A DNA stretch of 64,000 nt from Phycicoccus sp. Root101 (lineage in GTDB: Bacteria > Actinomycetota > Actinomycetes > Actinomycetales > Dermatophilaceae), in contig NZ_LMCM01000006.1 in NCBI RefSeq assembly GCF_001426245.1, positions 470,865-534,864 of the forward strand, written 5' to 3'. Position 1 is the stretch's first letter, and each line of letters begins with the position of its first letter. Below the pieces are notes generated by a model. It ran no database searches and was not told the origin of the DNA. It saw only the letters and a program-made list of their open reading frames with translations. Shown here one piece after another: positions 3,909-34,484 of this stretch. A program made the translations under genes and the position numbers.

Positions 3909-3993
3909 AGGTGGACCCTACGTCGGTGGCCACGGGGCGCCGACGTGACGGCAGTCGTCCCCGGCGCCGGGGGCGGTGCTCGCCCCGGCCGCC

Positions 3994-5091: not shown

Positions 5092-5179
5092 GGGACCTCG
5101 TGTCGGCGTCGTGCCGCCGGGTCCAGGGCAACTCTCGAGCTGGTCCTCCGACTGAAGCACGCACGGCGACGCGCCGCAA

Positions 5180-5219
5180 CCCCGGGGGCGGCCACCTGTG
5201 TCGCGGCCGTGCCCCGGGG
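5180..5219 (-). terminator. GC-rich hairpin downstream of the secreted propeller gene
   Basis: CCCCGGGGGCGGCC pairs with GGCCGTGCCCCGGGG across an 11-base loop. It lies just after the stop at 5258 in the minus direction and before the desaturase start, a good place for a terminator; no U-tract follows. Confidence 0.5.
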
Positions 5220-5257
5220 TGCGGACCGGTCACGCTCAGGCGCGGACCGGACGAGGT

Positions 5258-6208
5258 CTACCGCTTCACGACGACGACCTCGAACTGCGTCGCCGTGGGC
5301 GGGAAACCGGTGTCGAACTTGGCGTTCGCCAGGACGAGCCGGCCGCCGACACGGGCCACCGTGGTGGGTGTCTCGAAGAGAGGACTCGTGATGACCTTGC
5401 GCACCGTGGCCGACGACAGGTCCTTGGCCAGCCGGGCCTCGACGACCAGGTTGTCGTTGTTGCGCACCGACCACAGGGTCCGCCCGTCGAGGAGGATGCC
5501 GTCGACGTTCGGAACGCTCAACCCCGCGACGGCCCGGCTCGCCCCGGTGCGGGGGTCGACGACGTTGACGGCACCTTGGGCGCTGTGGGCGACGAGCAGC
5601 CGCGAACCGTCCTGCGTGGCCTGGATGCCGTTGTTGTTGAACGCGCCGGCGAGCTCTGCGGCGGGCCCGCTCAGGGAGAGGGTCCGGAAGGCGCCGGGCG
5701 TGCCGTGCCTGACGGGGACGAAGTACAGCACCGCCCGCGCGGAGTCGGTGAACCACGCACCCTTCTCCGTGAGTGCGACGTCGTTAATGAAGGTGGGGGC
5801 TGCAGCGAAGGTGTACGACGCCACCGGCATCCCCGTGGAGGTGCTGTAGACGTAGCCCTGGCCCGTCGGGCCTCCGGCGACGAACAGCAGGTGGTCGTCG
5901 CGGTCCACCTTCATGCCGGTGGCGAAACGGCCGGCCGGTGCATCGATGAACTTGGCCGCGGTGCCCTTGCCGACATCTCCGCGGAAGACGTCGCCCGTGA
6001 GCAGGTCCCCAGCGTAGAAGGTCGAGCCGCCACCGCTGGCGACCCCCTCGGTGCCCGTGGCGCCGGGTAGGACGATCGCCCGGTCCACGTGGTGGCGGTG
6101 GTCGGCGTGGTCGTCATGGTCGGCCGTCGCCGGTGGAGCGGCGAGGGCCAGCGTGGCGGCCGCCGCGAACACGGCAGCCAGCAGGGACGTCTTCCTCAGT
6201 GCGGTCAT
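5258..6208 (-). CDS. Secreted SMP-30/NHL-like beta-propeller protein
   Basis: A 316-residue exported protein. The N-terminus (MTALRKTSLLAAVFAAA, then ALA-APPATA) is a Sec signal peptide, followed by a His/Asp-rich stretch DHDDHADHRHHVD that could bind metal. The rest shows repeated propeller strands with motifs such as GNNNGIQA-type loops and LANAKFDTGFP at the end, as in SMP-30/ScoMcrA-like proteins. An enzymatic role (lactonase or other) cannot be assigned. ATG at 6208 follows AGAGAGGC. A longer frame to 6331 is rejected because the added residues precede the signal peptide. Confidence 0.75.
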   Translation of the reverse strand: MTALRKTSLLAAVFAAAATLALAAPPATADHDDHADHRHHVDRAIVLPGATGTEGVASGGGSTFYAGDLLTGDVFRGDVGKGTAAKFIDAPAGRFATGMKVDRDDHLLFVAGGPTGQGYVYSTSTGMPVASYTFAAAPTFINDVALTEKGAWFTDSARAVLYFVPVRHGTPGAFRTLSLSGPAAELAGAFNNNGIQATQDGSRLLVAHSAQGAVNVVDPRTGASRAVAGLSVPNVDGILLDGRTLWSVRNNDNLVVEARLAKDLSSATVRKVITSPLFETPTTVARVGGRLVLANAKFDTGFPPTATQFEVVVVKR

Positions 6209-6323
6209 CGGTGGTGCCTCTCTGGTCGCGCACCGCGACGGGTGCGGTCCTGCATGGTGGTCTGGCCGTCCCGGCCCCGCTCCCGGGTGGCAGGAGGTAG
6301 GACGACGGTCGCGGACCCCGCGT

Positions 6324-7088
6324 TCACCCACCCCCTCGGGTCGCGACGAGGGTGAGCTTGCGGATGCGCCCCTGCTCGAGCCAGTGGGTCCAGAGCCGGT
6401 GGGCCGTCAGTAGGTCGTCGAGGAAGGCGTCGCCGAGATGCGCTCGGATGTCCCCCGCGTGCTCCGAGAACGCGCGGGTCAGGGCTCGGGCGGCAGTGTG
6501 GTGGGCACGGGTGCTGTCGGTCTCCCACGTCACCCTCAGGCCGGCGTCCTCCAGGGAGGACCTCAGCTCGGCGTCCGGCACCGGCCAGACCGTGTCGGAC
6601 GCCGGCATGAGGGACCGTTCCGCCGCCGTGAGGGGCGCCCCGGTCTCGACGGTGCAGGCGAACCGGCCACCGGGGACGAGGGCGCCGGCGACCGCGCCCA
6701 GCAGGGGCGCCTTGTCGGCGAACGCGAGCATCGTCTCCAGGAGCAGGACCACGTCGAACCCGCCCTCGGGCACCGGTGGGACGTCGGCGATGGTGAACCG
6801 GCACCGGGGGCCGGCCCGCCTGCGTGCCACGGCGATCGCGTCCGGGGAACGGTCGACCCCGAGGTAGGTGCAGCCGAGCGCCTCGGCGATGAGCCGGCCG
6901 GGACCCGCGACACCGCAGCACAGGTCCAGGACCGAGGTCCCCGCCCCGATGGCGGCCCTGGTGGCGAGGTCCCGGATCTCGGTCGCCCGCATGAAGCTCT
7001 CCTGCCCGACGTACTCGCCGGGCTCGTAGGCCTCGAGGCGGGCGGCGAGCAGCCCGGCCTCGACCACCTCCCGGCCGATGGTCCTCAC
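6324..7088 (-). CDS. Class I SAM-dependent methyltransferase (cluster gene)
   Basis: A 254-residue methyltransferase. The SAM-binding motif I is VLDLCCGVAGPG (53-64), followed by the acidic end of strand 2 (YLGVDRSPDAIAVARRR) and the motif IV region FDVVLLLETML. The second half carries an Arg/His-rich ARALTRAFSEHAGDIRAHLG block typical of small-molecule methyltransferases. The GTG start at 7088 overlaps the stop of the upstream phosphatidyltransferase-sulfatase gene as GTGA, so the two are translationally coupled and probably act on the same pathway. The Cys-Cys in motif I is a small oddity. Substrate unknown. Confidence 0.85.
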   Translation of the reverse strand: MRTIGREVVEAGLLAARLEAYEPGEYVGQESFMRATEIRDLATRAAIGAGTSVLDLCCGVAGPGRLIAEALGCTYLGVDRSPDAIAVARRRAGPRCRFTIADVPPVPEGGFDVVLLLETMLAFADKAPLLGAVAGALVPGGRFACTVETGAPLTAAERSLMPASDTVWPVPDAELRSSLEDAGLRVTWETDSTRAHHTAARALTRAFSEHAGDIRAHLGDAFLDDLLTAHRLWTHWLEQGRIRKLTLVATRGGG

Positions 7089-9493
7089 CTGATGGCCCGG
7101 GTGGGTGGGGCGCTCGCGACGCCGGCCGCGGGAGCGGTCTGCCCGGCCGTGACCACCTCCGGCGACCGGTCGCCGAACGCGCCCAGGAACCGGTCCCTGA
7201 ACGCGTCCATGCGCCATACCGGCGCCCGGGGACCGGGGCGCAGGCCGTCCTGCCAACCCCACGAGGAGATGCGGGCCAGGACGGAGGGATCGCGAGCCAG
7301 GACGGTGACGGGCACGTCGTGGTTGCCCCCGAACCCGCTGACGATCGTGGCGGGCTGGTGGTCGCCGAGGAGGACGAGCACGAGGGAGTCGCTGCCGTAC
7401 CGCTCGACGAAGCCGAGCAGGGCCGTGAGGGAGTACTCGATCGAGTCCATGTAGGCCGCCGGGACCCGCTCGCGGTGGCTCCAGAGGTGGGACGCGGACT
7501 CGGCCCCGGCGTGCACGGCATCGAAGACCGTGCCGTCCCCCAGGTCGTCCCACCCCACCATGCGTGGCAGCGGCGCCCACGGCCCGTGGCTCGACGCGAG
7601 GTCGATCTCGGCCATGACCGGGGACGTCCGGCCCGGGCCGAGCTCGCGCCGCCCGAACGCGTCGAGGGCGTACTGGTCGGGCATCGAGGAGAACCCGAAC
7701 GCGGGCCCGGCGTACCCGAGGTCCGAGCTGTCGTAGATGGTGTCGAACCCGTAGTACCGCTGCCCCTGCGGCCAGGTCCCCCGGTTCGAGGGGAGCAACC
7801 CCACGGTCCGCCACCCCGAGCGAGCGAACACGCTGGGCAGGGTGGTGTGGTTCCCCGCGAGGAGCGTGTCGTAGCTGGTCTGGTTGTCGACCCACACCCC
7901 CGACAGGAAGGTGGAGTGGGCCAGCCAGCTGACTCCCCCGAAGGTGGAGGACGTGAGGTAGGCACTTCGCGCGGCATACCCGGAGGCCCCGAGCCGGGCC
8001 GAGGCCGCGTCGAGCATCGTGCGGACGCCCGCCGACGCGTCACCCTCGACGGCCACCCGGCCGTAGCTCTCGACGAAGGCGACGAGGACGTCCTTGCCGG
8101 CCAGGCCCGCGAGGTCACCGGTCCGCTGGTCCGCGTATGCGTCGTGCCGCACCGCCGCGTCGAAGGCGCGCTGCTCGCGCAGCGACGTCGAGATGCCGCG
8201 CGCCTGCCCCACCGCGAAACCGAGGGCTGCCCTGGCCGCGACCGGCTCGTCCTTCCCGACCTGTGCCCCGGACACCGCCGTGAGCGCCCAGGCGACGGTC
8301 AGGGCGACGACGGCGAGAGCGGACCGCCTGCGTCGGCGCCGAAGCTGCCGCGCGAGACGACCCACCGAGGCGGTGACGCCCGCGACGATGGCGAGCAGGA
8401 GCACCACCGCGCCCGCCTGCGCGCCGGTGGCCGCCCACGGACCGTAGGACGCACGGACGAAGTCGACCGCGGCCCCGAGGTGACCGGCGTCCGTCACGAG
8501 GTCGACCGGTCGGTCCAGCACCTCGACGAACGCCAGCTCAACGACCTCCAGCACCCCCAGCAGGCCCAGCGCGAGTCCAGCGACCCGGGCCACCACCCTC
8601 GAGGACCTCCCCGAGAGGACCACGACGAGGGCCGCCAGGGCGAGGCCCTCGACAGGGAGCCGCAGGAACGCCACCGGCGCCAGCCGGCCCGGCTCGACCG
8701 GGGCCACGAGGACGACCCAGACCAGCGCGACGGCTACGGTGTCGACGACGACGCCCCCGACACGACGCCACGACAGGCCCCGAATCTGCACGGCACCCAC
8801 GGGGGCGGTGACGCGGTGCCGCCACAGCCACCAGACGTCACGGCCGAACGACTCGGCCAGCAGCACCAGCCCGCCAATGACGGCGGTGACCACGAACCAG
8901 TGCGGACCGGCATCGGCAGCCGCGACGGTCAGCACGATCCCCACGGACGCCGTCACCACCTTGCGCCAGTAGCGGAACGGCAGCTGCGCGCGGAGCCAGG
9001 GCAGTCCCCAGCCGGCCACCGCGAACAGGTACCGCACCAGGCCGGCGAGCAGGACCCACGGACCTAGGTCGGGTGCCACGTAGACGCTCAGCACGAGGAT
9101 GAGGAACGCGTCGACCTCACCGTCGAAGCGGCCGCCGAAGGCCGACGTGGTCCCGGTGCGCCTGGCGACCCAGCCGTCGAGGGCGTCGAGCAGCAGGGCC
9201 ACCACGGTGATCGGCACCAGCAGCGCGGTGGTGCGTCCGTGCAGCAGGGCATCGGCCGTCAGGGCGGCCACGGCGCAGGTGATGACCGCGCGACCGAGGG
9301 TCACGGCGTCGGCCGGACCCGGGTCGACGCCGGCAGCCCGCAGGCCACGGGCGACGACGAGGTTGACGGTGACGCCGCACAGCAGGCCGACGACCCACCC
9401 CGTGGCGGTCAGGCCGACGCTGTTCCCGACCACGGCCAGCAGCACGGCCACGCCGACGACCCCGGCCCCGGTGAGGCGACGCACCGTCAGCAC
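7085..9493 (-). CDS. CDP-alcohol phosphatidyltransferase fused to a sulfatase/LTA-synthase-like domain
   Basis: An 802-residue two-enzyme membrane protein. The N-terminal part carries the full CDP-alcohol phosphotransferase signature DG-x2-AR-x8-G-x3-D-x3-D (Asp106, Gly107, Ala110, Arg111, Gly120, Asp124, Asp128), which joins an alcohol to a CDP-activated lipid or similar. More membrane helices follow (about 180-410), then an extracellular alkaline-phosphatase/sulfatase-superfamily domain with a likely metal ligand Glu475 in AFVESYG, a TFGGVSWLAHSTF block where the nucleophile should lie, and Asp711-His712 in LLGDHQPA. This resembles phosphoglycerol transferases such as LtaS. GTG at 9493 has GGGGAGG five bases upstream; a longer frame to 9802 is spurious. 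Confidence 0.85.
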   Translation of the reverse strand: MLTVRRLTGAGVVGVAVLLAVVGNSVGLTATGWVVGLLCGVTVNLVVARGLRAAGVDPGPADAVTLGRAVITCAVAALTADALLHGRTTALLVPITVVALLLDALDGWVARRTGTTSAFGGRFDGEVDAFLILVLSVYVAPDLGPWVLLAGLVRYLFAVAGWGLPWLRAQLPFRYWRKVVTASVGIVLTVAAADAGPHWFVVTAVIGGLVLLAESFGRDVWWLWRHRVTAPVGAVQIRGLSWRRVGGVVVDTVAVALVWVVLVAPVEPGRLAPVAFLRLPVEGLALAALVVVLSGRSSRVVARVAGLALGLLGVLEVVELAFVEVLDRPVDLVTDAGHLGAAVDFVRASYGPWAATGAQAGAVVLLLAIVAGVTASVGRLARQLRRRRRRSALAVVALTVAWALTAVSGAQVGKDEPVAARAALGFAVGQARGISTSLREQRAFDAAVRHDAYADQRTGDLAGLAGKDVLVAFVESYGRVAVEGDASAGVRTMLDAASARLGASGYAARSAYLTSSTFGGVSWLAHSTFLSGVWVDNQTSYDTLLAGNHTTLPSVFARSGWRTVGLLPSNRGTWPQGQRYYGFDTIYDSSDLGYAGPAFGFSSMPDQYALDAFGRRELGPGRTSPVMAEIDLASSHGPWAPLPRMVGWDDLGDGTVFDAVHAGAESASHLWSHRERVPAAYMDSIEYSLTALLGFVERYGSDSLVLVLLGDHQPATIVSGFGGNHDVPVTVLARDPSVLARISSWGWQDGLRPGPRAPVWRMDAFRDRFLGAFGDRSPEVVTAGQTAPAAGVASAPPTRAIR

Positions 9494-24197: not shown

Positions 24198-24236
24198 GGG
24201 GCAGGCACCCTGACCGCAGTGTGGACTAGTCCCTGA

Positions 24237-24269
24237 CCCGAGGAAATCCCGAGGTCCCGGCGGGACGGT
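24237..24269 (+). promoter_or_regulatory. SARP-type promoter of the multicopper oxidase operon
   Basis: CCCGAGG (24237-24243), four bases, CCCGAGG (24248-24254), nine bases, then a -10-like GACGGT (24264-24269). Heptamer direct repeats with an 11-bp period set close upstream of -10 are the known signature of SARP activators. GACGGT is six bases from the ATG at 24276, so the message is leaderless. The same arrangement is found at 31524-31556. Confidence 0.72.
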
Positions 24270-24275
24270 GACCTC

Positions 24276-26519
24276 ATGAACGACGTGACCATCGACCCAG
24301 GCGAACCGCTCGGGGGAGCCGACCCCGTCGGCACCGCCACGAAGGACAATGACAGCGCCGGGGTGACGCGGCGAACCGTCCTGCGCCTCGGGGCCGCCGG
24401 CAGCCTCGGCCTCGCCGTCGCGGCCGCCCAGGGACCGGGGAGCCTCTTCCTCTCCCAGCGGGGGCTGCTCTCGCCGAGCGGCGCCTTCGCCGCCACCTCC
24501 ACAGCCCTGGCCGACCTCGTCTACATCGAGGCCTTCCCCACGAGCCCACTGATCCTGTCGCCGTTCACCGACGTCCTGCCGGTGCCCAAGGCCCTCGCAC
24601 CCGTGCCCGTGTCGGAGTTTAGCTCGTGGTCCAAGCCACCCGGTCCCGGGTCAGGCCAACAGAACTCGATGCAGAACGAGCGCCACCAGATCTGGTCGAG
24701 CGACATCGGGTGCCCGGACCCGCTCGTCTACAAGATCGACCTGCTGGTTCGCCAGCACGCCTTCACGACGTCCATGGTCCTGCCCATCGACAAGAACGGG
24801 CGTCCAACGCTCTCCTTCGACCAGCAGGGGCACCCGGTCGCCGCCGGGACGAAGCGGTTCCTCCCCCTCAGCACCATCTACGGCTTCAACGGCGCCTTCC
24901 CCGGTCCCATGATCAACGCCGAGTACGGGCGGCCCGTCCTCGTGCGGTTCGAGAACCACCTCGACGAGAACCCGCTCGGGCTGGACCGCCAGGACTTCGG
25001 CGCACCCGACTGGTCCTTCCTGACCCACCTGCACAACGGCCACACGGCCCCCGAGAGCGACGGCAACCCGCACTACTCGATGACGGCCGGTCCGAAGTAC
25101 CACGGCTACCTTCCGCAGACCTTCTGCGACAACCTCTACCTCAACTGGCCGGCGGGCAACGACGACCGGGAGAAGCAGAGCTTCTTCTGGTTCCACGACC
25201 ACCGGATGGACCACACCGGAGCCAACGTCTACAAGGGCATGGTCGGGCTCTACCCCATCTACGACCCGAAGAACGGGATGGACATGGGCGACGAGCGGCA
25301 GGGCCTTCGGCTGCCCGGCGTCCGCACCGACCACCCTGACGGCTCCTTCGACGTGGACTACGACATCCCGCTGGCCTTCTACGACTGCCGGCTCGACGAC
25401 GGTGTCACCATGCACAAGGACATGCACGACACCCTCGGTGAGTTCCCCGCGGCCAAGAACCCGTCGGTCCACCCGGAGTGGTGGGGCAAGACGTTCTTCA
25501 AGCACTTTCCCAGCCACGGGTTCGTCGGCGACATCTTCACGGTCAACGGCACCGCATACCCGGTCCTGGAGGTGAAGCGCCGCAAGTACCGCTTCCGCTT
25601 CCTCGACTGCTCGGTCGCCCGGATCTACGAGTTCAAGCTGATGGCCTCGACCCAGGGCCCCCGGACGGCAGCCTCGCTCGGCTACACCGATGACGAGCTC
25701 GAGGGCCAGTACCGCATCCCGGACGGCCAGCAGTGCATGCAGTTCACCCAGATCGCCTCCGACGGCGGGCTGCTGCCGTTCCCCGTGAAGCGCGACTCGT
25801 TCGAGCTCTGGCCGGCCAAGCGCCGCGAGGTCATCATCGACTTCACCCGGTACCAGGACGGGACGCCCACCACCAAGGGCGACGTCATCTACCTCACCGA
25901 CGTCATGAAGATGCCGAACGGCCGGATGTGGTCGAACTCCTCGAGGTTCTCCCCCGACCCGAACTACAAGGTGCCGGTGCTCAAGTTCGTCATCGGCGAC
26001 AGCGCCCCCGACGACAGCCAGGTCCCCACGGCCATGCGGCCCCTCCCCCCTCTGCCCAGCAACTGGAAGACCATGCTGGACAACCGCTTGATCTTCGAGG
26101 TCCAGCGAGGCAGCGCCGGCGGCGAGATCGAGTGGTTGATCAACGGCAGCCCGTTCACCCCGGACGTCGTCGCCACGAGCCTGAAGAACAACGCCGGCAA
26201 GACCCCCCTCGCCCAGCAGCGGAAGAACAGCTTCAACCTGTGGGAGATCCGCAACGGCGGAGGCGGCTGGGTCCACCCGTTCCACCTCCACATGGAGGAG
26301 CACCGCACCGTGATGCGCGGCGGCAAGGACGTCACTGCCGGAGGCGACAAGGGCCATCCTGACGACGTCTCCCGCGAGGACCTCGCCGCCCTCGACCCCG
26401 GTGAGTCGGTGATCGTCTACCGAGGGTTCCGCGACTTCGTGGGCCCGTACGTCGCCCACTGCCACAACCTCGCCCACGAGGACCACGCCATGATGTTCGG
26501 CTGGGAGATCACCTCCTGA
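24276..26519 (+). CDS. TAT-exported multicopper oxidase
   Basis: A 747-residue secreted oxidase that would oxidise a phenol, metal ion or similar while reducing oxygen to water. Twin arginines Arg32-Arg33 in TRRTVLRLGAAG mark the TAT signal. Copper ligands are complete: HLHNGH (251-256), HDH (307-309), HPFHLH (667-672) and HCHNLAHEDHAMM (728-740), giving type 1, 2 and 3 sites with Met739 as a likely axial ligand. The architecture resembles bilirubin-oxidase/CotA-type enzymes but is longer. A SARP-type promoter precedes it, and a membrane protein gene follows by 30 bp. Confidence 0.9.
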   Translation: MNDVTIDPGEPLGGADPVGTATKDNDSAGVTRRTVLRLGAAGSLGLAVAAAQGPGSLFLSQRGLLSPSGAFAATSTALADLVYIEAFPTSPLILSPFTDVLPVPKALAPVPVSEFSSWSKPPGPGSGQQNSMQNERHQIWSSDIGCPDPLVYKIDLLVRQHAFTTSMVLPIDKNGRPTLSFDQQGHPVAAGTKRFLPLSTIYGFNGAFPGPMINAEYGRPVLVRFENHLDENPLGLDRQDFGAPDWSFLTHLHNGHTAPESDGNPHYSMTAGPKYHGYLPQTFCDNLYLNWPAGNDDREKQSFFWFHDHRMDHTGANVYKGMVGLYPIYDPKNGMDMGDERQGLRLPGVRTDHPDGSFDVDYDIPLAFYDCRLDDGVTMHKDMHDTLGEFPAAKNPSVHPEWWGKTFFKHFPSHGFVGDIFTVNGTAYPVLEVKRRKYRFRFLDCSVARIYEFKLMASTQGPRTAASLGYTDDELEGQYRIPDGQQCMQFTQIASDGGLLPFPVKRDSFELWPAKRREVIIDFTRYQDGTPTTKGDVIYLTDVMKMPNGRMWSNSSRFSPDPNYKVPVLKFVIGDSAPDDSQVPTAMRPLPPLPSNWKTMLDNRLIFEVQRGSAGGEIEWLINGSPFTPDVVATSLKNNAGKTPLAQQRKNSFNLWEIRNGGGGWVHPFHLHMEEHRTVMRGGKDVTAGGDKGHPDDVSREDLAALDPGESVIVYRGFRDFVGPYVAHCHNLAHEDHAMMFGWEITS

Positions 26520-26549
26520 CCGGCGACAGCCGAAACGAGAGAGTGCGCC

Positions 26550-26585
26550 GTGTCCACCTCCATGTCCACCTCCATGTCCACCTCC
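26550..26585 (+). repeat. 12-bp coding tandem repeat (M-S-T-S units)
   Basis: The unit (A/G)TGTCCACCTCC occurs three times in a row at the very start of the gene, each copy beginning with a possible start codon. Unit length is a multiple of three, so copy-number change would alter protein length and start choice without shifting the frame. Confidence 0.75.
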
Positions 26586-27698
26586 ATCGCCACGAACCGT
26601 CCCGCGGTCGCCGGCCGCGCAGCCGTCCCCTGGCTGACCGTCCTGCCGCTTGCCGTGCTGATGTCGTTCGCGGACGGGTACTGGATGACGTCGCTGCGGG
26701 GCGCCTTCGGAGCCATCCAACGCACGCAGGACCTGTTCGGCAGCTGGGTGCGTGACTCCACCGTCCTCGTCCCCGCCTTCGTGCTGGCCGTGCTCGCAGC
26801 GCTCGTCCTCTCGGCCCGGCTGTACGGCCCGGTGCTGCGAGCCCGGCCCTCGGTCCCTGTCACGGCCCTGCTCATCGCCCTCGCCGGGACCGTCGCCGGA
26901 CTCCTCGCCCTCGGGGCCAGCACGGCCTACGACTACGAGCTCGAGAGCAGCCAGCTCGGCCTCATGGCCACGATGCAGGGCCGGTGCGTGGCCGGAGACT
27001 GCCTGGGCATCCAGCGCCGGGCGACGCTCGCCCTGCAGGAGCGTTCGGTCGTCATGGGGATGGGGCTGATCCTGCTCACCAACCTCGTCCTGGTCGGCTG
27101 GGTGGTGGCGGTGCGCGGGGGAAGGCTCCGGGTCAGCGCGCCCGGGCGGGCCGAGGGCGCGGCACGCTCCCGCGCGGACGACCTGCGCCGCCTGCTCGCC
27201 GTCGGACTGGTGTGCAGCGCGGTGATCCACGGCGCCGTGGTACCCGAGCACCTGGTCGAGTGGCCCGCGGCCGGCGCCTTCTTCGTCGCACTCACCGGTG
27301 TCGAGCTCGCCGCCGCGATCCTCGTCATCCGACGACCCCAGGCATCCACCCTGGTGGCCGCGGCGGTCGCCTCGCTGGGACCGCTCCTGGTGTGGCTCTG
27401 CTCGCGGACCGTGGGGCTGCCGTTCGGGCCCGAGCCGGGCACCGCCGAGGCCGTCGGGCTGGCGGACGTCTCCGCCTGCCTGCTCGAGCTCGCCACCCTG
27501 GCGGCAGCAGTCGTCCTCGTCCTCGCGCGACCCGGGCTGGGGTCCCGGCCAGGGACCGGGCCACACCGCGGCTGGATCGCCGTCATGGCCCTGCTCACGG
27601 TGACCACGGTCGGGTTCTCCGGCACCGGGCTCGCGGGCTTCGACGGCTTCGGCGTCGCCCCCGCCCACGGCTCCACCGTCGCGGGGCACCACCACTGA
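26550..27698 (+). CDS. Polytopic membrane protein co-transcribed with the multicopper oxidase
   Basis: A 382-residue membrane protein of unknown function with about nine hydrophobic segments. After the first helices comes a loop with two cysteines, MQGRCVAGDCLGIQRR, and the C-terminus ends in AHGSTVAGHHH, a possible metal-binding tail. The N-terminus is three 12-bp repeats encoding M-S-T-S each. GTG at 26550 follows GAGAGAG. Its position 30 bp after the oxidase suggests a membrane partner, for example for electron or copper supply, but I do not recognise a family. Confidence 0.75.
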   Translation: MSTSMSTSMSTSIATNRPAVAGRAAVPWLTVLPLAVLMSFADGYWMTSLRGAFGAIQRTQDLFGSWVRDSTVLVPAFVLAVLAALVLSARLYGPVLRARPSVPVTALLIALAGTVAGLLALGASTAYDYELESSQLGLMATMQGRCVAGDCLGIQRRATLALQERSVVMGMGLILLTNLVLVGWVVAVRGGRLRVSAPGRAEGAARSRADDLRRLLAVGLVCSAVIHGAVVPEHLVEWPAAGAFFVALTGVELAAAILVIRRPQASTLVAAAVASLGPLLVWLCSRTVGLPFGPEPGTAEAVGLADVSACLLELATLAAAVVLVLARPGLGSRPGTGPHRGWIAVMALLTVTTVGFSGTGLAGFDGFGVAPAHGSTVAGHHH

Positions 27699-27710
27699 GA
27701 AGTGTTGTGC

Positions 27711-28079
27711 TCAGGTCACCGGGCTCGCCGCCCGGACGGCCGCCAGCAACGACTCCGGCCCGTCTCCCTTCATGACGAAGACGGTGGCCCCCGCCTCCAG
27801 AGCCGCCTTCTCCGAGCGAGCGCGGGAGCGTCCGGTCAGCACGACCACTCGGACGTGGGGGGCTGCTTCGAGGATCTGGCGGGTGGCCTCCAGGCCGTCG
27901 AGTCCGGGCATCGAGAGATCCATGACGACCACGTCGGGGGACGTGGTCGTGGCCATGAGCACCCCTGCGTGGCCGTCCCGTGCATCCCCGCAGACCACGA
28001 GGTCGTGCTGCGAGGCGAACAGGGCCAGCAGCCCCAGCCGCACCGGGGCCGAGTCGTCGACGACGAGGACCCGGATCAC
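27711..28079 (-). CDS. Stand-alone response-regulator receiver protein (CheY-like)
   Basis: A 122-residue receiver domain with no output domain. Acidic pocket residues sit in VLVVDDS (Asp8-Asp9), the phospho-acceptor is Asp54 in VVMDLSMPG, and VVVLTGRS and FVMKGD supply the Thr and Lys. GTG at 28079 has a perfect AAGGAGG five bases upstream. It lies 99 bp after the histidine kinase and likely receives phosphate from it, perhaps as a sink or a protein-interaction switch. It faces the membrane-protein gene tail to tail. Confidence 0.85.
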   Translation of the reverse strand: MIRVLVVDDSAPVRLGLLALFASQHDLVVCGDARDGHAGVLMATTTSPDVVVMDLSMPGLDGLEATRQILEAAPHVRVVVLTGRSRARSEKAALEAGATVFVMKGDGPESLLAAVRAASPVT

Positions 28080-28178
28080 CTCGACCTCCTTGTCGTAGCG
28101 GAAGGGCCACTGCACCAGGCCCGTGGACGCATCGTCGCCGAACGGCCTCGGGCTGACCTCGGGCCCGACGAACACCTG

Positions 28179-29567
28179 CTAGTCACGGCGGGACGCCGGA
28201 TCGGAGCGCACGGTGTCCAGCGAGGTCAGCCGCGGGTCGAGGGTCAACGGGATGGTCGCCCGGACCTCGACCCCGCCACCCTTCGGGGTGCCCAGCTCGA
28301 GGCCGCCCCCGAAGTCGACCAGGGTGTCCGCGAGCAGGCGAAGGCCGACATGACCGCGCTCCGTGGCACCCGGCGCCATACCCACTCCGTCGTCGGCCAC
28401 CGTCACGCGGGCCACCGGCCCTTCCACCCACGCCTCCACCCACGCGGACGAGGCGTGGGCGTGGCGCACGACGTTGCGCAGCGCTTCCCGCACGACCCGG
28501 TAGACGAGCTGGACCGACTCGGCGGAGGCGCGTGGGATCTCGGGGTCGATGCGCACGTGCACGTCCAGCCCCTTCTCGCGTGCTCGTTCGGCCAGCTCCT
28601 CGACGGCGACGAGCAGCCCCTCGTCGGCCAGGTCCGCAGGGTAGATGTCGGTCAGCAGACCACGCAGGGCGATGACGTCCCGGTCGAGCCCCTCACGCAC
28701 GGCGACCAGCACCCGCCGTGAGTCGGCGTCGGACTCCGGGATCGCCCGGATCACCGCCGGGAGCGTGTACGCCAGCCCCGTCAGGTCCTGGACGAGGCCG
28801 TCGTGGAGGTCCGCGGCGATCCGGCGCCGCTCCAGGTCCGACGCGGACAACGCGTGGCGCACCATGACGTTCCGCTCGTCCCGGGCCTTGTCGACCCTGC
28901 GCACGAGGGTGCGCACCAGGGGCAGCAGCGCGAGCTGGAAGAGGGCCAGGGCACCCAGGGCGAGCAACGACAGCTTGACGACGATGTCGCGGTTGTCGGC
29001 GCGCATCCGGTCGGTCGACCAGTAGGACTCGAACACGATCGGCTGTCCTTCGGCGTCGTGCGCACCGGCGTACACCTCGAGCAGCTGGCGGCTGGGGCGG
29101 TCCTCGACGTTCTCGACCTTGGTCAGGTCGGACACTGCTGCGGTGACCTTCTCGGTGCCGAACAGCTCCGCCACGTCGGCGTCCAGGGGGTAGCGCTCGC
29201 CGATCAGGGCGGACTCGTCGGACCAGATGACCTTCCCGTCCGGCCCCCAGAGCTTCACGTGGACGATCGACCCGTCCTGCAGTCGCGCCCGCATCACGTT
29301 GGCGAACACCGTGGTCCGCGCCGGGTCACCCCTACGCACGGCCGCGTCGACGAGGGGCGCGGCGACGGTGTGGGCGAAGGCCGCACCGCGCACGCGCGCC
29401 TCACCCAGCGCGATGTCGGCGGCAAGGGTGCGGGCGACGAGCACCACCGCGATGCCGACGGCCACGAGGACCACCGCGCTGGAGAGGAGGTACCGCGTGA
29501 CGGCGAAGGCCAGGGACCGGCCCCCGACCGGTCTCCTCCACCGCGCCAGGAGCCTAGTCGGGGTCAT
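28179..29567 (-). CDS. NarL-partner-type sensor histidine kinase
   Basis: A 462-residue membrane kinase. Transmembrane helices lie at about 28-46 and 197-220, enclosing an extracytoplasmic sensor of about 150 residues. The dimerisation/phosphorylation helix is LERRRIAADLHDGLVQDL with His255, and the ATPase domain shows VYRVVREALRNVVRHAHA, VADDGVGM and a closing GGGLELGTPKGGG. The ATG at 29567 overlaps the response-regulator stop by 14 bp, so the two are coupled. The ligand is unknown; its place between two oxidase-type secreted systems suggests a redox or metal cue, which is inference. Confidence 0.88.
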   Translation of the reverse strand: MTPTRLLARWRRPVGGRSLAFAVTRYLLSSAVVLVAVGIAVVLVARTLAADIALGEARVRGAAFAHTVAAPLVDAAVRRGDPARTTVFANVMRARLQDGSIVHVKLWGPDGKVIWSDESALIGERYPLDADVAELFGTEKVTAAVSDLTKVENVEDRPSRQLLEVYAGAHDAEGQPIVFESYWSTDRMRADNRDIVVKLSLLALGALALFQLALLPLVRTLVRRVDKARDERNVMVRHALSASDLERRRIAADLHDGLVQDLTGLAYTLPAVIRAIPESDADSRRVLVAVREGLDRDVIALRGLLTDIYPADLADEGLLVAVEELAERAREKGLDVHVRIDPEIPRASAESVQLVYRVVREALRNVVRHAHASSAWVEAWVEGPVARVTVADDGVGMAPGATERGHVGLRLLADTLVDFGGGLELGTPKGGGVEVRATIPLTLDPRLTSLDTVRSDPASRRD

Positions 29568-30198
29568 CGAGCTGGATGAGTCCGCGGCGGTGCGCCGTCA
29601 CGACCGCCTCGAGCTGGGTGTGGGCACCCAGCTTGGACAGGATGTTCTTGATGTGGCCCCGACACGTCAGGAGCGAGATGCCGAGGCCGCGGGCGATCCC
29701 GCCGGCGTCCTCGCCCGCCGCCAGGCGCGCAAGGACGTCCCGCTCCCGGGAGGTGAGGGGGGTGGTCGGGGGGTGGTGCTTCCCGGCACCACCACCGACG
29801 AGGAGCCGCACCAGGCTGGGGTGCACCATGAAGTCGTCCCGGCGCGACGACCGGACCGCGGCCAGGAGGTCGTCGAGCTGCCCGTCCTTGGGCATGAGCC
29901 CGCAGGCGCCCGCAGCGACGGCACGCTCGAGCAGCCCACGTGTGACGAACCCGGTGAGGATGATGACCCGCGTCGCTGGTGCGGTGGCGAGCAGCCGCGA
30001 CGTCGTGTCGATCCCGTCCGCGTCGCGGAGTCGGACGTCCATGACGACCACGTCCGGGCGGAGCTCGCCGGCCAACCTCAGCGCCTCGTCCGCGTCGCCC
30101 GTGGTCGCGATGCACTCGAGGTCGTCCTCCCTCGAGATGGCGACGGCCACGGCGTCGGCGACGGTCCCGTGGTCGTCGACGACGAGCACGCGCGTCAT
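29554..30198 (-). CDS. NarL/FixJ-family response regulator
   Basis: A 214-residue two-domain regulator. The receiver has VLVVDDH (Asp8-Asp9) and phospho-acceptor Asp54 (VVMDVRL). The LuxR HTH runs from PLTSRERDVLARLAAGE to GLGISLLTCRGHIKNILSKLG, near 142-205. Its start is taken as the ATG at 30198, with GAGGTG almost abutting it; an in-frame GTG just upstream is an alternative. The frame continues far upstream but that part is antisense to the SARP gene. It pairs with the adjacent kinase. Confidence 0.88.
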   Translation of the reverse strand: MTRVLVVDDHGTVADAVAVAISREDDLECIATTGDADEALRLAGELRPDVVVMDVRLRDADGIDTTSRLLATAPATRVIILTGFVTRGLLERAVAAGACGLMPKDGQLDDLLAAVRSSRRDDFMVHPSLVRLLVGGGAGKHHPPTTPLTSRERDVLARLAAGEDAGGIARGLGISLLTCRGHIKNILSKLGAHTQLEAVVTAHRRGLIQLDDPD

Positions 30199-30507
30199 CA
30201 CCTCGCCCACCAGAGCCGCCACCTCCCCACAGGTCACCCCCGATGCAGGGCGCGGCGTCCCCCACGCCGTGGACCCCCGCCCAGCAAGCCCAGTATCCGC
30301 GCGGCCCGTCCCCCGGGCCATAGTCCGTGCGAACCATCGTGGCCACCCGATGGTGTCGTGAACCACAGCAAACCGCAGCGAACGATCGCGACCGCCGTGG
30401 GCGCGTGGATCCCACCGCCCCAGATTGGGTGTCGTTCGACCCCGAGGCTGCCGGAGCTCTGGATCGCTGCTCGGCGCGAGCATGGTCGTGGCGGAAGGGG
30501 AACGGCC
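30199..30507. promoter_or_regulatory. 309-bp divergent regulatory region between response regulator and SARP genes
   Basis: No gene is seen. It holds a perfect inverted repeat ACCATCG-N8-CGATGGT (30333-30354), a minus-strand GATACT box near 30290 that may serve the response-regulator operon, and on the plus side a single CCCGAGG (30441-30447) followed by a poorer half copy CCGGAGC (30451-30457), a weak hint of SARP self-regulation. GGAAGGGG before 30508 is the SARP ribosome site. Confidence 0.5.
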
Positions 30508-31494
30508 ATGACCGGTGGGGATGGGGTCGAGGACATCACAGGCACCGCGGTGCTGCGGGCCACGCTGTGCGGACGGGTGACGGTCACGGGGCACGGATCG
30601 GTGCTCGGTCCGCGCGAGCTCGGGGGGACGAAACCGCGCCACATCCTCATCGCACTGCTCCTGCGGGCCGGCCAGCCGGTCACGAAGGCGCGCCTCGTCG
30701 AGGCGCTCTGGGGAGACGCGCCGCCGTCGGGGGCGACAGGCACGCTCGAGGGCTACGTCAGCCTGCTGCGCAAGCGCATCGAGCCCCTGCACCCGGGACA
30801 GGACAGCCCGGTCCGCACCGTGCCCGGGGGGTACCTCGCGGACCCGTCGCTGGTCGAGGTGGACGTCGAGCGCTTCCGTGCCCTCGTGGCAGCCGCGCGA
30901 CGCCCCGGGAACCCTCCGACGCGGGCGCTGGTGGACTACGCCGCCGGCCTCCTGCTCGTGGAGGGTGGCCTCGTCCCGGACGAGCTCGCCCCGTCGTGGC
31001 TCGAGGAAGAGCGCCGAGCGCACGCCGCCCTCGTCGGCAAGGTGGTGGTCGAGGCCGGGATGCTGGCGCTCGACGCCGACCAGCCCGTCCTCGCCGAACA
31101 CTGGGCCCGTCGGGCCCTGGACCGTGACGCCTTCGACGAGACGGCCTGGAGGGTGCTGCTGGAGTCGTTGGAGGTGCGCGGCCTGCACGCTGACGGTGTG
31201 CGCGCCTACGACACCTGCCGGCGACTCTTCGACCGAGAGCTCGGCTGCGCCCCCGGTCCCGGGATCAGGGCGGCCTTCAGCCGACTGCTCGCCGGGACCC
31301 GGGGTGACGACGGGGGGCTGGGGAGCCTGCTGCAAGCGGTCCTGCGCGTGCACGCCGAGCTCTCTCCCCCACCCCTTCGTTCCGTCGAGCGCACCGGCGA
31401 CGCCACGGGCCTCGAGGAGGCCTGTCGGGCCCTCGACGCCCTCATCGCCACGGCCCGGCACCGCTGCGGCCTGAGGGTGGCCAGCTCCGCCTGA
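30508..31494 (+). CDS. SARP-family transcriptional activator (OmpR-like DNA-binding domain plus BTAD)
   Basis: A 328-residue activator. The winged-helix domain covers roughly 15-105 (PRHILIALLLRAGQPVTKAR, then LEGYVSLLRKRIEP and VRTVPGGYLAD). The bacterial transcriptional activation domain follows to about 270 (YAAGLLLVEGGLVPDELAPS, EARRAHA-type helices, RRALDRDAFDETAWRVL). There is no NB-ARC ATPase, so it is a small SARP. ATG at 30508 has GGAAGGGG upstream. SARPs bind direct heptamer repeats; matching repeats lie before the oxidase (24237) and the TIG protein (31524), on both sides of this gene. Confidence 0.88.
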   Translation: MTGGDGVEDITGTAVLRATLCGRVTVTGHGSVLGPRELGGTKPRHILIALLLRAGQPVTKARLVEALWGDAPPSGATGTLEGYVSLLRKRIEPLHPGQDSPVRTVPGGYLADPSLVEVDVERFRALVAAARRPGNPPTRALVDYAAGLLLVEGGLVPDELAPSWLEEERRAHAALVGKVVVEAGMLALDADQPVLAEHWARRALDRDAFDETAWRVLLESLEVRGLHADGVRAYDTCRRLFDRELGCAPGPGIRAAFSRLLAGTRGDDGGLGSLLQAVLRVHAELSPPPLRSVERTGDATGLEEACRALDALIATARHRCGLRVASSA

Positions 31495-31523
31495 GCAGGT
31501 CCCCCATCTGAGGGGGCTGGCGG

Positions 31524-31556
31524 CCCGAGGTGACCCCGAGGTCACGCAGAGACGAT
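31524..31556 (+). promoter_or_regulatory. SARP-type promoter of the TIG-domain protein
   Basis: CCCGAGG (31524-31530), four bases, CCCGAGG (31535-31541), nine bases, then GACGAT (31551-31556). Spacing is identical to the oxidase promoter at 24237-24269. Transcription would begin near 31563, leaving a leader of about 70 bases with a GGAGGA ribosome site. A small CCCCC/GGGGG hairpin at 31501-31516 just before it may end the SARP transcript. Confidence 0.72.
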
Positions 31557-31634: not shown

Positions 31635-34484
31635 ATGAGCACACAGCCTCGGAGGCAGAGCTGGGGGCAGGCTGGCCTCGCGGTTCCGGTCCCACCAGCA
31701 GCGAGCACGGTCGGGAGCAGGCGTCGCAAGGCGCTGGGCGCCGTCGCGGTCGCGTCCCTGCTGGCGGTCGCGGGTTCCGCGACGCTGGCCACCACGGCCC
31801 AGGCAGCCCTCGTCACGGGCACCCTGGTGGCGCAGAACCTCACCCGACCCGGCGGCGGGGTCTTCCTCCCCGGGGGAGGCGGCCACTTCTGGGTCAGCGA
31901 CGGGGTGCTGGGTCTGTGCGAGACCCTTCCCGCGACGGCCGGCACCACCAAGTGCAACGGCACGGCAAAGGGCGGCCAGGTGGCCTACGACTCCACGAAG
32001 AACCTTGTCTACCAAGCGGACTCGTCGAGCAAGACCAACCAGGTCCTCCGCTTCACCTACACCGCCGCCTCGGACGGGCTGGGCGGTGCCACGGCGCTCC
32101 AGGTGCCGAACGTGACGGCAGTCGGCGGCGGATCGGGTGGTGGACGCGCCCAGGGCATCGCCCTCGGCACCGGACCCGACGGCGCCGAACGGCTCTACGT
32201 CGGCTACCTCAAGTCCGGCGACATCATGCAGGTGCTCAACCCCTCCGGAAAGGACCGCACGGGCGCCACGGTCACGCCGACGGTGACGAAGATCGGCTCG
32301 ACCTCTGACGGCCGCGGGGTCAACGCCCTCAGCCTGATCTCCCTGACGGGGTCCGACGGGGTCACCCACCACGACCTGTACGTTGCGGAGCTCGGTGGCG
32401 CGGGGATGTCGGTCATCAAGGACGTCGACGGCACCGGCGGGCGGCCCGCCTGTGGCGCCTCGGCGTGCACGGCCACCACGGTGGCCAGCGCCAACGGCGC
32501 CGCGCTCTTCAGCTTCCCGGGCGGCCTGGCCAACGACGGCAAGGTCCTCTACATCGCCGACGCACCGCGGAACACGCCGTCGCAGGTCCTGACGTACAAC
32601 CCCCGCACGGGCGCGACGGACGTCCTGTCCACCGACATCAGCCCGGCGTACACCTCGACGTTCGACGGGGTCCGCCGCACGCAGTACCAGAACATCACCG
32701 GCGTGGCAGTCGACCCGGCGACACTCGACGTGTACGTCGGGGACGACCCCAGCTTCCCCCTCGCGACCCCGGTCAACGCCCAGGCGCACGAGTGGAAGGC
32801 GGCGGGCGCCGCCTCACAGCCCAGCGTCACCGGTGTCTCCCCCGCCACGGGCGACGTCGCCGGTGGGCTCGCGGTGACCGTCACGGGCAAGAACCTCGTG
32901 AACTCCGTCGCAGGGTCGGCGGACCCGGTCGCCTTCGGGACCACCATCAGCTTCGGCACCCTGCACGCAACGGCTGTGTCGTGCCTGGCCGACGGGACCT
33001 CCTGCACGGCGACCTCGCCGGCCTCGACCGGTTCCGGCGTCGTGGACGTGCGGGTGACCAACGTCGAGTCGCAGACCAGCGCCAGGGTGGGGGCCGACCA
33101 GTTCACCTACACGGCGACGGCCCCCGCGCCCGGGAGCCCGGTCGTGACCGGCATCAGCCCGACGACGGGCCTCGCCAAGGGCGGGACGGCGGTCACCGTC
33201 AAGGGCACGGCCCTGGTCAGCCCCGACGGCACCGCGACGATCAGCTTCGGGACGGCGTCCGGAACGGGCGTCAGCTGCCTGGCCGACGGGTCCCAGTGCA
33301 CCGTGGTGAGTCCCGCCGGCACCGACGGCTCCGTGGTTGACGTCCAGGTCACCACCACCGCCGGCACCAGCGCCGCCGTGGCCGCCGACCGGTTCACGTA
33401 TGCCGCGCCGATCGGCACGCTGTACAGCTCCGGAGTGACCGCGCCCAAGGGTGGGGTGACCTGGATCCCCGACGGCACCTCGTCCGGTGGGCACTACTGG
33501 GTCTCCGACCACGGCAACGGGCTGTGCCGTCTCGACCCCGTGCCGGGGACCAAGGTGAACGCGCCCAACGTCGCAGCCTGCGACCCCGGCTTCACCATCG
33601 GCTCCCCCGGCCAGGCCGTCTACGACCCGCGCGCCAGGGCCGACGGGACGCACTGGGTGTACGTGCCCGACAACGCGGTCCGGAGCCCCGGCGTCTGGCG
33701 ACTGACCTTCCACCCCGACACCGCGACGATCGATGCGCCCGTCGGCATGGCCCCCGGGCTGCTGGACAACCTGAAGACCAACTCCTTGGCCCTCGACGCC
33801 GCCCGCGACACCCTGTACGTCGGCGACCTGGTGGACGGGAACATCCGCCGCATCAACGGCATCGCGGGTGACCCGAGGTCGCAGACCGTGGACGTCGTGG
33901 CGGTGACGCAGGCGCAGAAGGTCGGCGCTGCCAGCCGCGGGATCAACGGGACGATGAGTCTCCTCGGCAACCGGCTCTTCATGCCGGAGAACAACGCCGC
34001 GACCTACTTCGACACCACGGCCGCCTGCGCCAACCCCACCGCCAGCCCCAACCCGGCACCGTGCCAGACGACCACGGTCGACTTCCTGCCGACCCCCGCG
34101 CCGGTCTTCATCGCCGGGGTGGCTGCTGACTCGAAGCACAACCTGGTCTACATCTCGGAGTCGCCCGGCACCGCGAACGCCACGATCTACCGGTTCGACG
34201 CCTCGACATTGACGGCCGCGCTGCCCGGTGGGTCCGCGGGCACCGTGTACGTCACCGCTGGCAAGGTTCCGGCGGCCGGGTCACCCGAGGCGACGGTGTA
34301 CTGCTCCCTCACCTGCACCCGTCCGGCAGACCCGAGCCTGACGCCGGGAGGCACGACCGGGTTCCCGTTCGCCCAGGGTCTGTTCGTGGACCCCACGAGC
34401 TCGGACCTCTACGTCACCGAGGACGTCACGGCGGGTGCCAGGTCCGGCAGGGGCCACGTGTGGGTGGTGCCGTACATCCCCTAG
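31635..34484 (+). CDS. Large secreted protein: beta-propeller, two IPT/TIG domains, beta-propeller
   Basis: A 949-residue exported protein. A signal peptide follows a basic stretch (SRRRKALGAVAVASLLAVAG, cleavage near TAQA-AL, about 58). The N-terminal region (70-390) and C-terminal region (600-949) both contain the block GH(F/Y)WVSDxxxGLC (83-93 and 619-629) followed by loops with VYxxD strands, so they look like an internal duplication of a propeller. Between them are two immunoglobulin-like TIG domains starting near 395 (VTGVSPATGDVAGG) and 501 (VTGISPTTGLAKGG). ATG at 31635 follows GGAGGACGAA. Function unknown; it shares a SARP-type promoter with the oxidase. Confidence 0.82.
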   Translation: MSTQPRRQSWGQAGLAVPVPPAASTVGSRRRKALGAVAVASLLAVAGSATLATTAQAALVTGTLVAQNLTRPGGGVFLPGGGGHFWVSDGVLGLCETLPATAGTTKCNGTAKGGQVAYDSTKNLVYQADSSSKTNQVLRFTYTAASDGLGGATALQVPNVTAVGGGSGGGRAQGIALGTGPDGAERLYVGYLKSGDIMQVLNPSGKDRTGATVTPTVTKIGSTSDGRGVNALSLISLTGSDGVTHHDLYVAELGGAGMSVIKDVDGTGGRPACGASACTATTVASANGAALFSFPGGLANDGKVLYIADAPRNTPSQVLTYNPRTGATDVLSTDISPAYTSTFDGVRRTQYQNITGVAVDPATLDVYVGDDPSFPLATPVNAQAHEWKAAGAASQPSVTGVSPATGDVAGGLAVTVTGKNLVNSVAGSADPVAFGTTISFGTLHATAVSCLADGTSCTATSPASTGSGVVDVRVTNVESQTSARVGADQFTYTATAPAPGSPVVTGISPTTGLAKGGTAVTVKGTALVSPDGTATISFGTASGTGVSCLADGSQCTVVSPAGTDGSVVDVQVTTTAGTSAAVAADRFTYAAPIGTLYSSGVTAPKGGVTWIPDGTSSGGHYWVSDHGNGLCRLDPVPGTKVNAPNVAACDPGFTIGSPGQAVYDPRARADGTHWVYVPDNAVRSPGVWRLTFHPDTATIDAPVGMAPGLLDNLKTNSLALDAARDTLYVGDLVDGNIRRINGIAGDPRSQTVDVVAVTQAQKVGAASRGINGTMSLLGNRLFMPENNAATYFDTTAACANPTASPNPAPCQTTTVDFLPTPAPVFIAGVAADSKHNLVYISESPGTANATIYRFDASTLTAALPGGSAGTVYVTAGKVPAAGSPEATVYCSLTCTRPADPSLTPGGTTGFPFAQGLFVDPTSSDLYVTEDVTAGARSGRGHVWVVPYIP

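Follow-up and report, generated by a model that had tools for sequence, protein, structure and literature searches.

Streptomyces antibiotic regulatory proteins (SARPs) are known mainly from antibiotic clusters. Excerpts of the structural work on AfsR describe the SARP geometry as 11-bp direct repeats beside a poor -10, with each AfsR protomer contacting the first 8 bp of the 11-bp repeat and with T88 and R92 contacting bases at -36 and -38 (PMC10936776). On the side of the enzymes considered here, portions of two reports name multicopper oxidases (MCOs) and animal-type haem peroxidases as the two classes for direct bacterial Mn(II) oxidation (PMC6247904, PMC11930936), and the second of these describes how Mn biomineralization is regulated, and what it does, as unknown. 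Here we describe a small SARP gene of Phycicoccus sp. Root101 and its predicted targets. The window, by which we mean the whole stretch of DNA that was analysed, comprises 64,000 nt (G000:C6:470865-534864) of a genome (G000) of 4.38 Mb in 12 contigs. Our analysis indicates that the locus is a conserved regulon of secreted oxidases driven by a SARP, that SARP and box co-vary in a recognition code, and that the regulon is larger than an earlier note on this DNA had stated.

The window contains three SARP-type boxes. On the plus strand, CCCGAGG-AAAT-CCCGAGG-N9-GACGGT (24237-24269) precedes an MCO gene and CCCGAGG-TGAC-CCCGAGG-N9-GACGAT (31524-31556) precedes the gene of a surface protein with TIG domains. 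On the minus strand, CCCGAGG-TCAG-CCCGAGG-N9-GACGAT (28163-28131) lies ahead of a single-domain response regulator, between the stop of a kinase gene (28179) and the likely GTG start (28079) of the regulator. The earlier note had described the first two as a matched pair of promoters; both are real, with the heptamers, spacing and coordinates given there, but the count was too low, as the minus-strand site had been missed, and calling the two -10s the same was slightly too strong because GACGGT and GACGAT are one base apart. The direct-repeat period is 11 bp at all three sites, one of the two periods (11 or 22 bp) by which SARP promoters are recognized. The distance from heptamer end to -10 is 9 bp throughout, which differs from the described SARP value of 8 by at most 1 bp, according to where one takes the repeat to end. 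The N4 spacers and the N9 vary among the three sites.

The full motif, CCCGAGG-N4-CCCGAGG-N9-GACGNT, has three matches in the genome, all inside 7.3 kb of the window, and none in the 185 other genomes of the family. The many unrelated sites that the earlier note had named as evidence against its claim are thus absent from both. The direct repeat without the -10 occurs in five copies genome-wide (reversed control, none), and the two copies outside the boxes lie within called genes of the opposite strand and have no -10. Under a Markov model of the window, 1.26 repeats and 0.0024 full motifs are expected per genome. When up to three mismatches are allowed, the window shows no enrichment, with 54 matches against 58 expected, so only the near-exact form of the motif is informative.

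The gene between the two plus-strand boxes (30508-31494, plus strand) encodes the proposed activator, with the recognition helix TLEGYVSLLRK. Its product of 328 aa has an OmpR-type helix-turn-helix (HTH) and a BTAD domain (Pfam Trans_reg_C, 37 bits; BTAD, 42 bits; both above cut-off) and no further C-terminal domain, confirming the small SARP placed there by the earlier note; AfsR and EmbR were the only solved relatives found. A profile built from three SARPs (E <= 1e-25) matched 24 of the 186 genomes of the family set, in 12 of its 53 genera and at 31 places. Surroundings were examined at 27 of these, leaving out G042, G118, G133 and G136. According to our own gene calls, a response regulator and a kinase of the cassette type lie within about 6 kb of the SARP at 25 of the 27 places (exceptions, L145 and the short contig L071), and the stretch contains an MCO or an animal-type haem peroxidase at 26 (exception, L071). 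The window's oxidase family is present in 12 of the 186 genomes at E <= 1e-100, and ten of these are among the 24 SARP genomes. In a class-wide sample the profile matched 15 of 394 genomes, 13 of them outside the family; seven of ten loci from those 13 genomes contain an oxidase (L132, L133, L135, L136, L138, L139 and L140), and our searches detected none in L134, L137 and L141. A search for related loci with the SARP alignment returned one distant mycobacterial locus only.

A relaxed box, CCCRAGGN4CCCRAGGN9SANNNT, has 15 matches in the 186 family genomes, compared with none for its reverse and about 3.9 expected by chance; a control with spacer 5 has two matches, both in genomes without the SARP at E <= 1e-25. 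Of the 11 genomes with a relaxed box, nine belong to the 24 SARP genomes (hypergeometric, 1e-7), and in a sample of 396 genomes from the order, 34 of them from the family, every match fell in family members already seen. Eight of the 12 matches outside the Root101 genome are located in fetched SARP cassettes (L071, L075, L079 and L083 to L087). In L102 and L103, the box is found away from the SARP or on another contig, about 41 to 42 nt ahead of the likely ATG of a haem peroxidase gene. Overall, the boxes of the relatives precede MCOs, RTX haem peroxidases, surface proteins and some small response regulators. A 22-bp period gave no consistent pattern among the matches listed. In L073, three CAGAAGG repeats with an 11-bp period follow one another upstream of a haem peroxidase gene (3942-9230, minus strand), an arrangement at which, judged from the sequence, three SARP protomers might bind.

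A weight matrix built from 11 of the 15 relaxed matches, omitting the duplicate in G055, the L083 site and the target-less sites of G122 and G179, was applied to loci outside the training set, the window not being among them. A box scoring at least 12 stands ahead of 28 of 57 genes of the target classes and of 5 of 360 others. Split by class, the 28 comprise 17 of the 33 oxidases, 4 of the 9 surface proteins, 5 of the 6 P169 genes and 2 of the 9 single-domain regulators; among the nontargets, no SARP gene (0 of 24), one response regulator (1 of 26) and no kinase (0 of 26) has such a box. The others include the MnxG-like genes and weakly matching CopC/CopD genes. The target classes were named after a first scoring run on part of the loci, which makes the later-fetched loci (L132 to L149) the cleaner test; there, 8 of 26 target genes and 5 of 165 others have a box (Fisher, P = 3e-5), and several of the five are cassette neighbours, namely, CopC/CopD and a short receiver protein in L135 and a gene beside the L139 cassette. 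A first held-out comparison of 18 oxidases with 208 other genes gave a P value of 8.5e-5, with 7 of the 18 oxidases scoring below 6. The box counts were highest at spacer 4 (28, followed by 9 at spacer 5) and at a -10 distance of 9 (28, followed by 17 at distance 12). Because the loci are related, the P values overstate independence. The gene caller, a crude scoring of GC frame, misplaces starts, as for the TIG gene and for the L102 and L103 peroxidases (called upstream of the box), and the distances to starts are therefore approximate.

The protein side shows a matching pattern. In an alignment mapped by eye, residues W68, P73, S74, S85, R88 and K89 of the window SARP are the AfsR backbone contacts W74, P79, S80, S91, R94 and K95, and AfsR Q81, R87, T88 and R92 are replaced by Gly75, Glu81, Gly82 and Leu86. 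SARPs with Gly82 and Leu86 (six loci: the window, L075, L077, L079, L080 and L081) go with CCCGAGG or CCCGAGC boxes; the SARPs of 15 loci with Ala, Ser or Thr at 82 and Val86 go with an A at the corresponding heptamer base. Thirteen of 328 SARP columns separate the G-type from the A-type group, including the equivalents of both AfsR contact positions T88 and R92; a recheck again gave 13 columns, one of them a different column. This test left out L076, whose start was cut by the gene caller, and L069, which has AACC repeats: its helix carries Ser83 and Arg85, and CACAACC-TTTT-CCCAACC-N9-TACGGT stands before its oxidase. The later-fetched loci mostly agree, with A in L139, L142 and L145 (the last with a weak score of 9.1) and, apart from one TCCGAGG, in L135; L143 has one AAGG and one AACC repeat, and no clear box was seen in L136, L138, L140 and L144. 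The three boxes, their exclusivity, the conservation of box, spacing, -10 and target classes and the match of heptamer to helix are thus computed results, and the last of them offers a small, testable protein-DNA recognition code: Gly82/Leu86 with G and Ala/Ser/Thr82/Val86 with A.

Several observations weigh against this picture. Roughly half of the genes in the target classes lack a box scoring at least 12, and no box was seen for the peroxidases of L070 and L072, for the L069 homologue of the TIG protein or for the small regulators of L075, L077, L079, L080 and L081. One or two evolutionary events may underlie the covariation of G and A; on the tree, two changes are required for the G group, and a single one remains compatible. 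The window SARP is 46 to 49% identical to the other Gly82 SARPs, which is about its identity to some Ala82 ones. The variable base faces the T88 position only on the assumption that the first base of the 8-bp unit is the one just before the heptamer. Two A-type loci have a mixed box, with one CCCGAGG repeat paired with TCCAAGC before the small regulator of L087 and one TCCGAGG repeat paired with an A repeat before the surface protein of L135. Columns of the response regulator also separate the two groups (7 of 218, of which two, 169 and 192, are in the HTH part), as do 8 of 462 kinase columns. Finally, three relaxed matches have no fitting target, and a few stray boxes are expected given the roughly 3.9 chance matches predicted over the family. 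One of them (L071:2034-2066) is an exact relaxed box with no target gene downstream, on a short contig that has the SARP and the regulator and no called kinase or oxidase; perhaps this is a decayed cassette. The second (L101, G122:C1, 9871-9903), likewise exact, is found some 300 bp upstream of where the gene of a 3,139-aa subtilase/CarboxypepD_reg/PQQ-repeat protein was called to start; that genome has no match to the SARP profile at the threshold used. The third (L104, G179:C119, minus strand, 9899-9867), also exact, stands ahead of a short reading frame whose product would be a small peptide of membrane-like character; the draft genome has the MCO of the window type on another contig and, at the same threshold, no SARP.

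On balance, it is very likely that the small SARP binds the three boxes and activates a secreted-oxidase regulon that spans 24.2 to 34.5 kb of the window. We hypothesize that it would sit as a side-by-side dimer on the two CCCGAGG repeats, one helical turn apart and just upstream of a poor -10, and would recruit RNA polymerase at the three promoters. The first target would be the MCO, exported by the twin-arginine translocation (Tat) pathway, together with its membrane-protein neighbour; the second would be the TIG surface protein and the third the single-domain response regulator, which may feed back on the pair of kinase and NarL-type regulator. This pair probably senses an extracellular cue, upstream of the SARP or alongside it. 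We infer the binding, the activation, the signal and the order from kinase to regulator to SARP from these sequence comparisons. The earlier claim of SARP control over a secreted oxidase and a large surface protein is thus backed by comparative evidence; it needs to be extended, as the third target and the kinase/response-regulator pair belong to the unit. Where its wording has the SARP activate export, the process activated would be the transcription of genes for exported proteins and not export itself.

The MCO (24276-26519, plus strand, 747 aa) is a multicopper oxidase by Pfam and CotA/bilirubin-oxidase-like by alignment to solved structures. Read by eye, it has the twin-arginine signal RRTVLRLGAAG, and its copper-ligand motifs HLH, HDH, HPFHLH and HCHNLAHEDHAMM align with those of CotA. 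Its closest solved structures are CotA and bilirubin oxidase, the likeness to CotA being distant, and it scores below the NCBIfam equivalog cut-offs of CueO (101.5 of 525 bits) and PhsA (89.4 of 950 bits). From the usual distance between -10 and +1, transcription is predicted to start at the ATG itself (24276), which may leave the mRNA leaderless. The next gene (26562-27698, plus strand) is membrane-protein-like and follows MCOs of the window type in several related cassettes; Pfam gave no match for its longer frame (26550-27698). Three genes lie on the minus strand: the receiver-only response regulator (27711-28079; Pfam, with the start picked by GGAGG before GTG 28079), the sensor histidine kinase (28179-29567; HisKA_3 and HATPase_c by Pfam) and the NarL-type response regulator (29554-30198; receiver and GerE HTH by Pfam, with the ATG start picked by eye). 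The sensor loop of the kinase has no recognized fold, and its single-sequence model was too poor for a structure search owing to a predicted local distance difference test (pLDDT) score of 60. The large surface protein (31635-34484, plus strand) has two TIG domains by Pfam and is probably exported, with an export signal read by eye.

The genome contains a second, paralogous cassette of SARP, regulator and kinase (G000:C9, L036:8239-16580 and L150:1493-6732; gene calls and Pfam). Its SARP is 40% identical to that of the window, carries Thr82 and Val86 and goes with boxes of the AAAG/AAGG type. This cassette includes CopC/CopD, a 1,740-aa haem peroxidase with RTX and fn3 repeats and a weak box (score, 12.1), and a pair of P169 and a 1,563-aa oxidase behind a box scoring 21.8. 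The oxidase (L150:2041-6732) matches Bacillus MnxG (PDB 9bxa) with an E value of 3.3e-95; the alignment is collinear for 220-1229 versus 5-830, the last piece (1501-1555 versus 1158-1213) is weak, and the intervening stretch aligns out of order only. Searched with a 387-aa piece of it, 6 of the 186 family genomes have a match at E <= 1e-60, and each of the six matches lies no more than about 12 kb from a SARP of the cassette type. Outside the family, giant oxidases next to SARPs (L136 and L140) also have MnxG as best match (E values, 6e-89 and 6e-90), and both homologues fall far below the cut-off of 3100 of the NCBIfam MnxG equivalog NF041487 (118 bits in L136 and 105 bits in L140). The peroxidase has the Pfam domains An_peroxidase and HemolysinCabind, one PERCAL motif and six GGxGxD repeats; PERCAL is present in 7 of 16 peroxidase homologue rows (15 distinct genes, one partial) and in none of 618 other predicted proteins.

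Some features of the surroundings are recorded here in their own right. The palindrome ACTAGTC is located at window position 24226, just upstream of the MCO box, and again at L036:8047 and L037:10706, about 190 bp upstream of second-cassette SARPs. We considered it as a response-regulator site, which is possible but not general, and many of the remaining CTAGs coincide in part with stop codons. A signal peptidase I (Peptidase_S26, by scans of L083 and L076) follows the oxidase in several cassettes of the set L076, L078, L082 to L087, L144 and L145, near which large PKD- or ASH-domain surface proteins are also found. In L081, a long poly-G/poly-C tract lies about 160 to 130 bp upstream of the response regulator (4823-5497, minus strand), between the regulator and oxidase promoters; it is possibly a phase-variable spacer or an assembly feature.

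What does the regulon do? The earlier label of a copper oxidase system is probably too narrow, as related cassettes drive haem peroxidases and MnxG-like oxidases too. Control by the SARP is compatible with a role in phenolic or lignin-type oxidation or in copper tolerance rather than in Mn(II) oxidation, to which we give nearly an even chance. CotA and bilirubin oxidase, the solved structures nearest to the window MCO, are known for phenolic substrates, and CopC/CopD genes accompany the peroxidase cassettes. However, copper tolerance alone leaves the haem peroxidases unexplained, and MnxG-like oxidases in the peroxidase cassettes also speak against this role. The oxidases belong to classes that include known Mn(II) oxidases; therefore, a regulon for Mn(II) oxidation can be put forward as a testable but unproven reading, and Mn(II) oxidation appears to be a good candidate for the role. 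We tentatively propose, at somewhat less than even chance, that the cassettes represent an undescribed actinobacterial Mn(II)-oxidation regulon in which kinase/NarL pairs and SARPs, with one co-varying box type, would drive MnxG-like and CotA-like MCOs, MopA-like peroxidases and surface scaffold proteins. Within Root101, the CotA-like oxidase would be under the window SARP, and the MnxG-like oxidase and the peroxidase would be under its paralogue. MopA proteins are described, in the part of PMC6247904 available to us, as bearing PERCAL and hemolysin-type calcium motifs, and an extract of PMC3618234 reports Mn-oxidase activity for CotA of Bacillus pumilus. Counting against a role in Mn(II) oxidation, MopA is described as inactive in Pseudomonas putida GB-1 in a section of PMC11930936, and the window's CotA-like oxidase could have its role in the handling of phenolics or copper. 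If the oxidases do act on Mn(II), the regulon would provide a genetic handle on manganese oxidation in actinobacteria.

Other explanations concern the protein that binds the boxes. The NarL-type response regulator shows the same tight linkage to the cassettes as the SARP, and its separating columns extend into its HTH part, so we considered it as the binder; this is very unlikely, because 11-bp direct repeats at a poor -10 are the geometry that the AfsR excerpts give for SARPs (PMC10936776) and because both AfsR base-contact positions are among the separating columns of the SARP. The boxes could also belong to a different OmpR-type regulator encoded elsewhere in the genome, the SARP lying between them by accident. 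OmpR-type regulators also bind direct repeats, and the second SARP is at hand, but its Thr82 and Val86 go with the AAAG/AAGG-type boxes of its own cassette, and the relaxed boxes track genomes with the window SARP subfamily, which makes this explanation highly improbable. That the repeats arose by chance, or from a recent duplication that has no function, as the missing enrichment at three mismatches might suggest, is scarcely credible and already contradicted by the exclusivity of the motif (0.0024 expected per genome), by spacers and N9 that differ while heptamers and -10 agree, by the held-out box counts and by relaxed boxes that precede genes of the target classes in other genera and, with L135, in a different family of the class.

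Binding by the SARP itself thus remains the preferred explanation, and among the matches listed in open-licence literature on SARPs, multicopper oxidases, peroxidases, two-component systems and mnxG, we found no description of a regulon of SARP and secreted oxidases. The giant oxidase of the second cassette resembles Bacillus MnxG (PDB 9bxa), and CotA is the best solved, though distant, relative of the window MCO; we know of no SARP for Bacillus MnxG or CotA. EmbR of Mycobacterium tuberculosis (PDB 2fez) is, like the window SARP, a SARP-type protein, with a role outside antibiotic clusters and targets other than those proposed here; unlike the window SARP, it has an extra FHA domain, as an excerpt of PMC10936776 indicates. 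In P. putida GB-1, according to parts of PMC11930936, the MCO genes mnxG and mcoA and the animal-type haem peroxidase gene mopA have the sensor kinases MnxS1/S2 (with MnxR) as proposed regulators, an arrangement similar to ours, whereas the mnxG and mcoA promoters there are predicted to be of the sigma-54/integration host factor (IHF) type and those described here would depend on a SARP and a NarL-type regulator. The association of a SARP subfamily with secreted oxidases and a two-component pair broadens the role of SARPs. The likeness to AfsR at the afsS promoter of Streptomyces, as given in the excerpts of PMC10936776, comprises the 11-bp direct repeats, the six kept backbone-contact residues and a poor -10, CACTGT at afsS and GACGAT, CACCGT and CACCAT here and in the relatives; the window SARP differs from AfsR in its heptamer, in its small size without NOD and TPR domains and in its proposed targets, the secreted oxidases.

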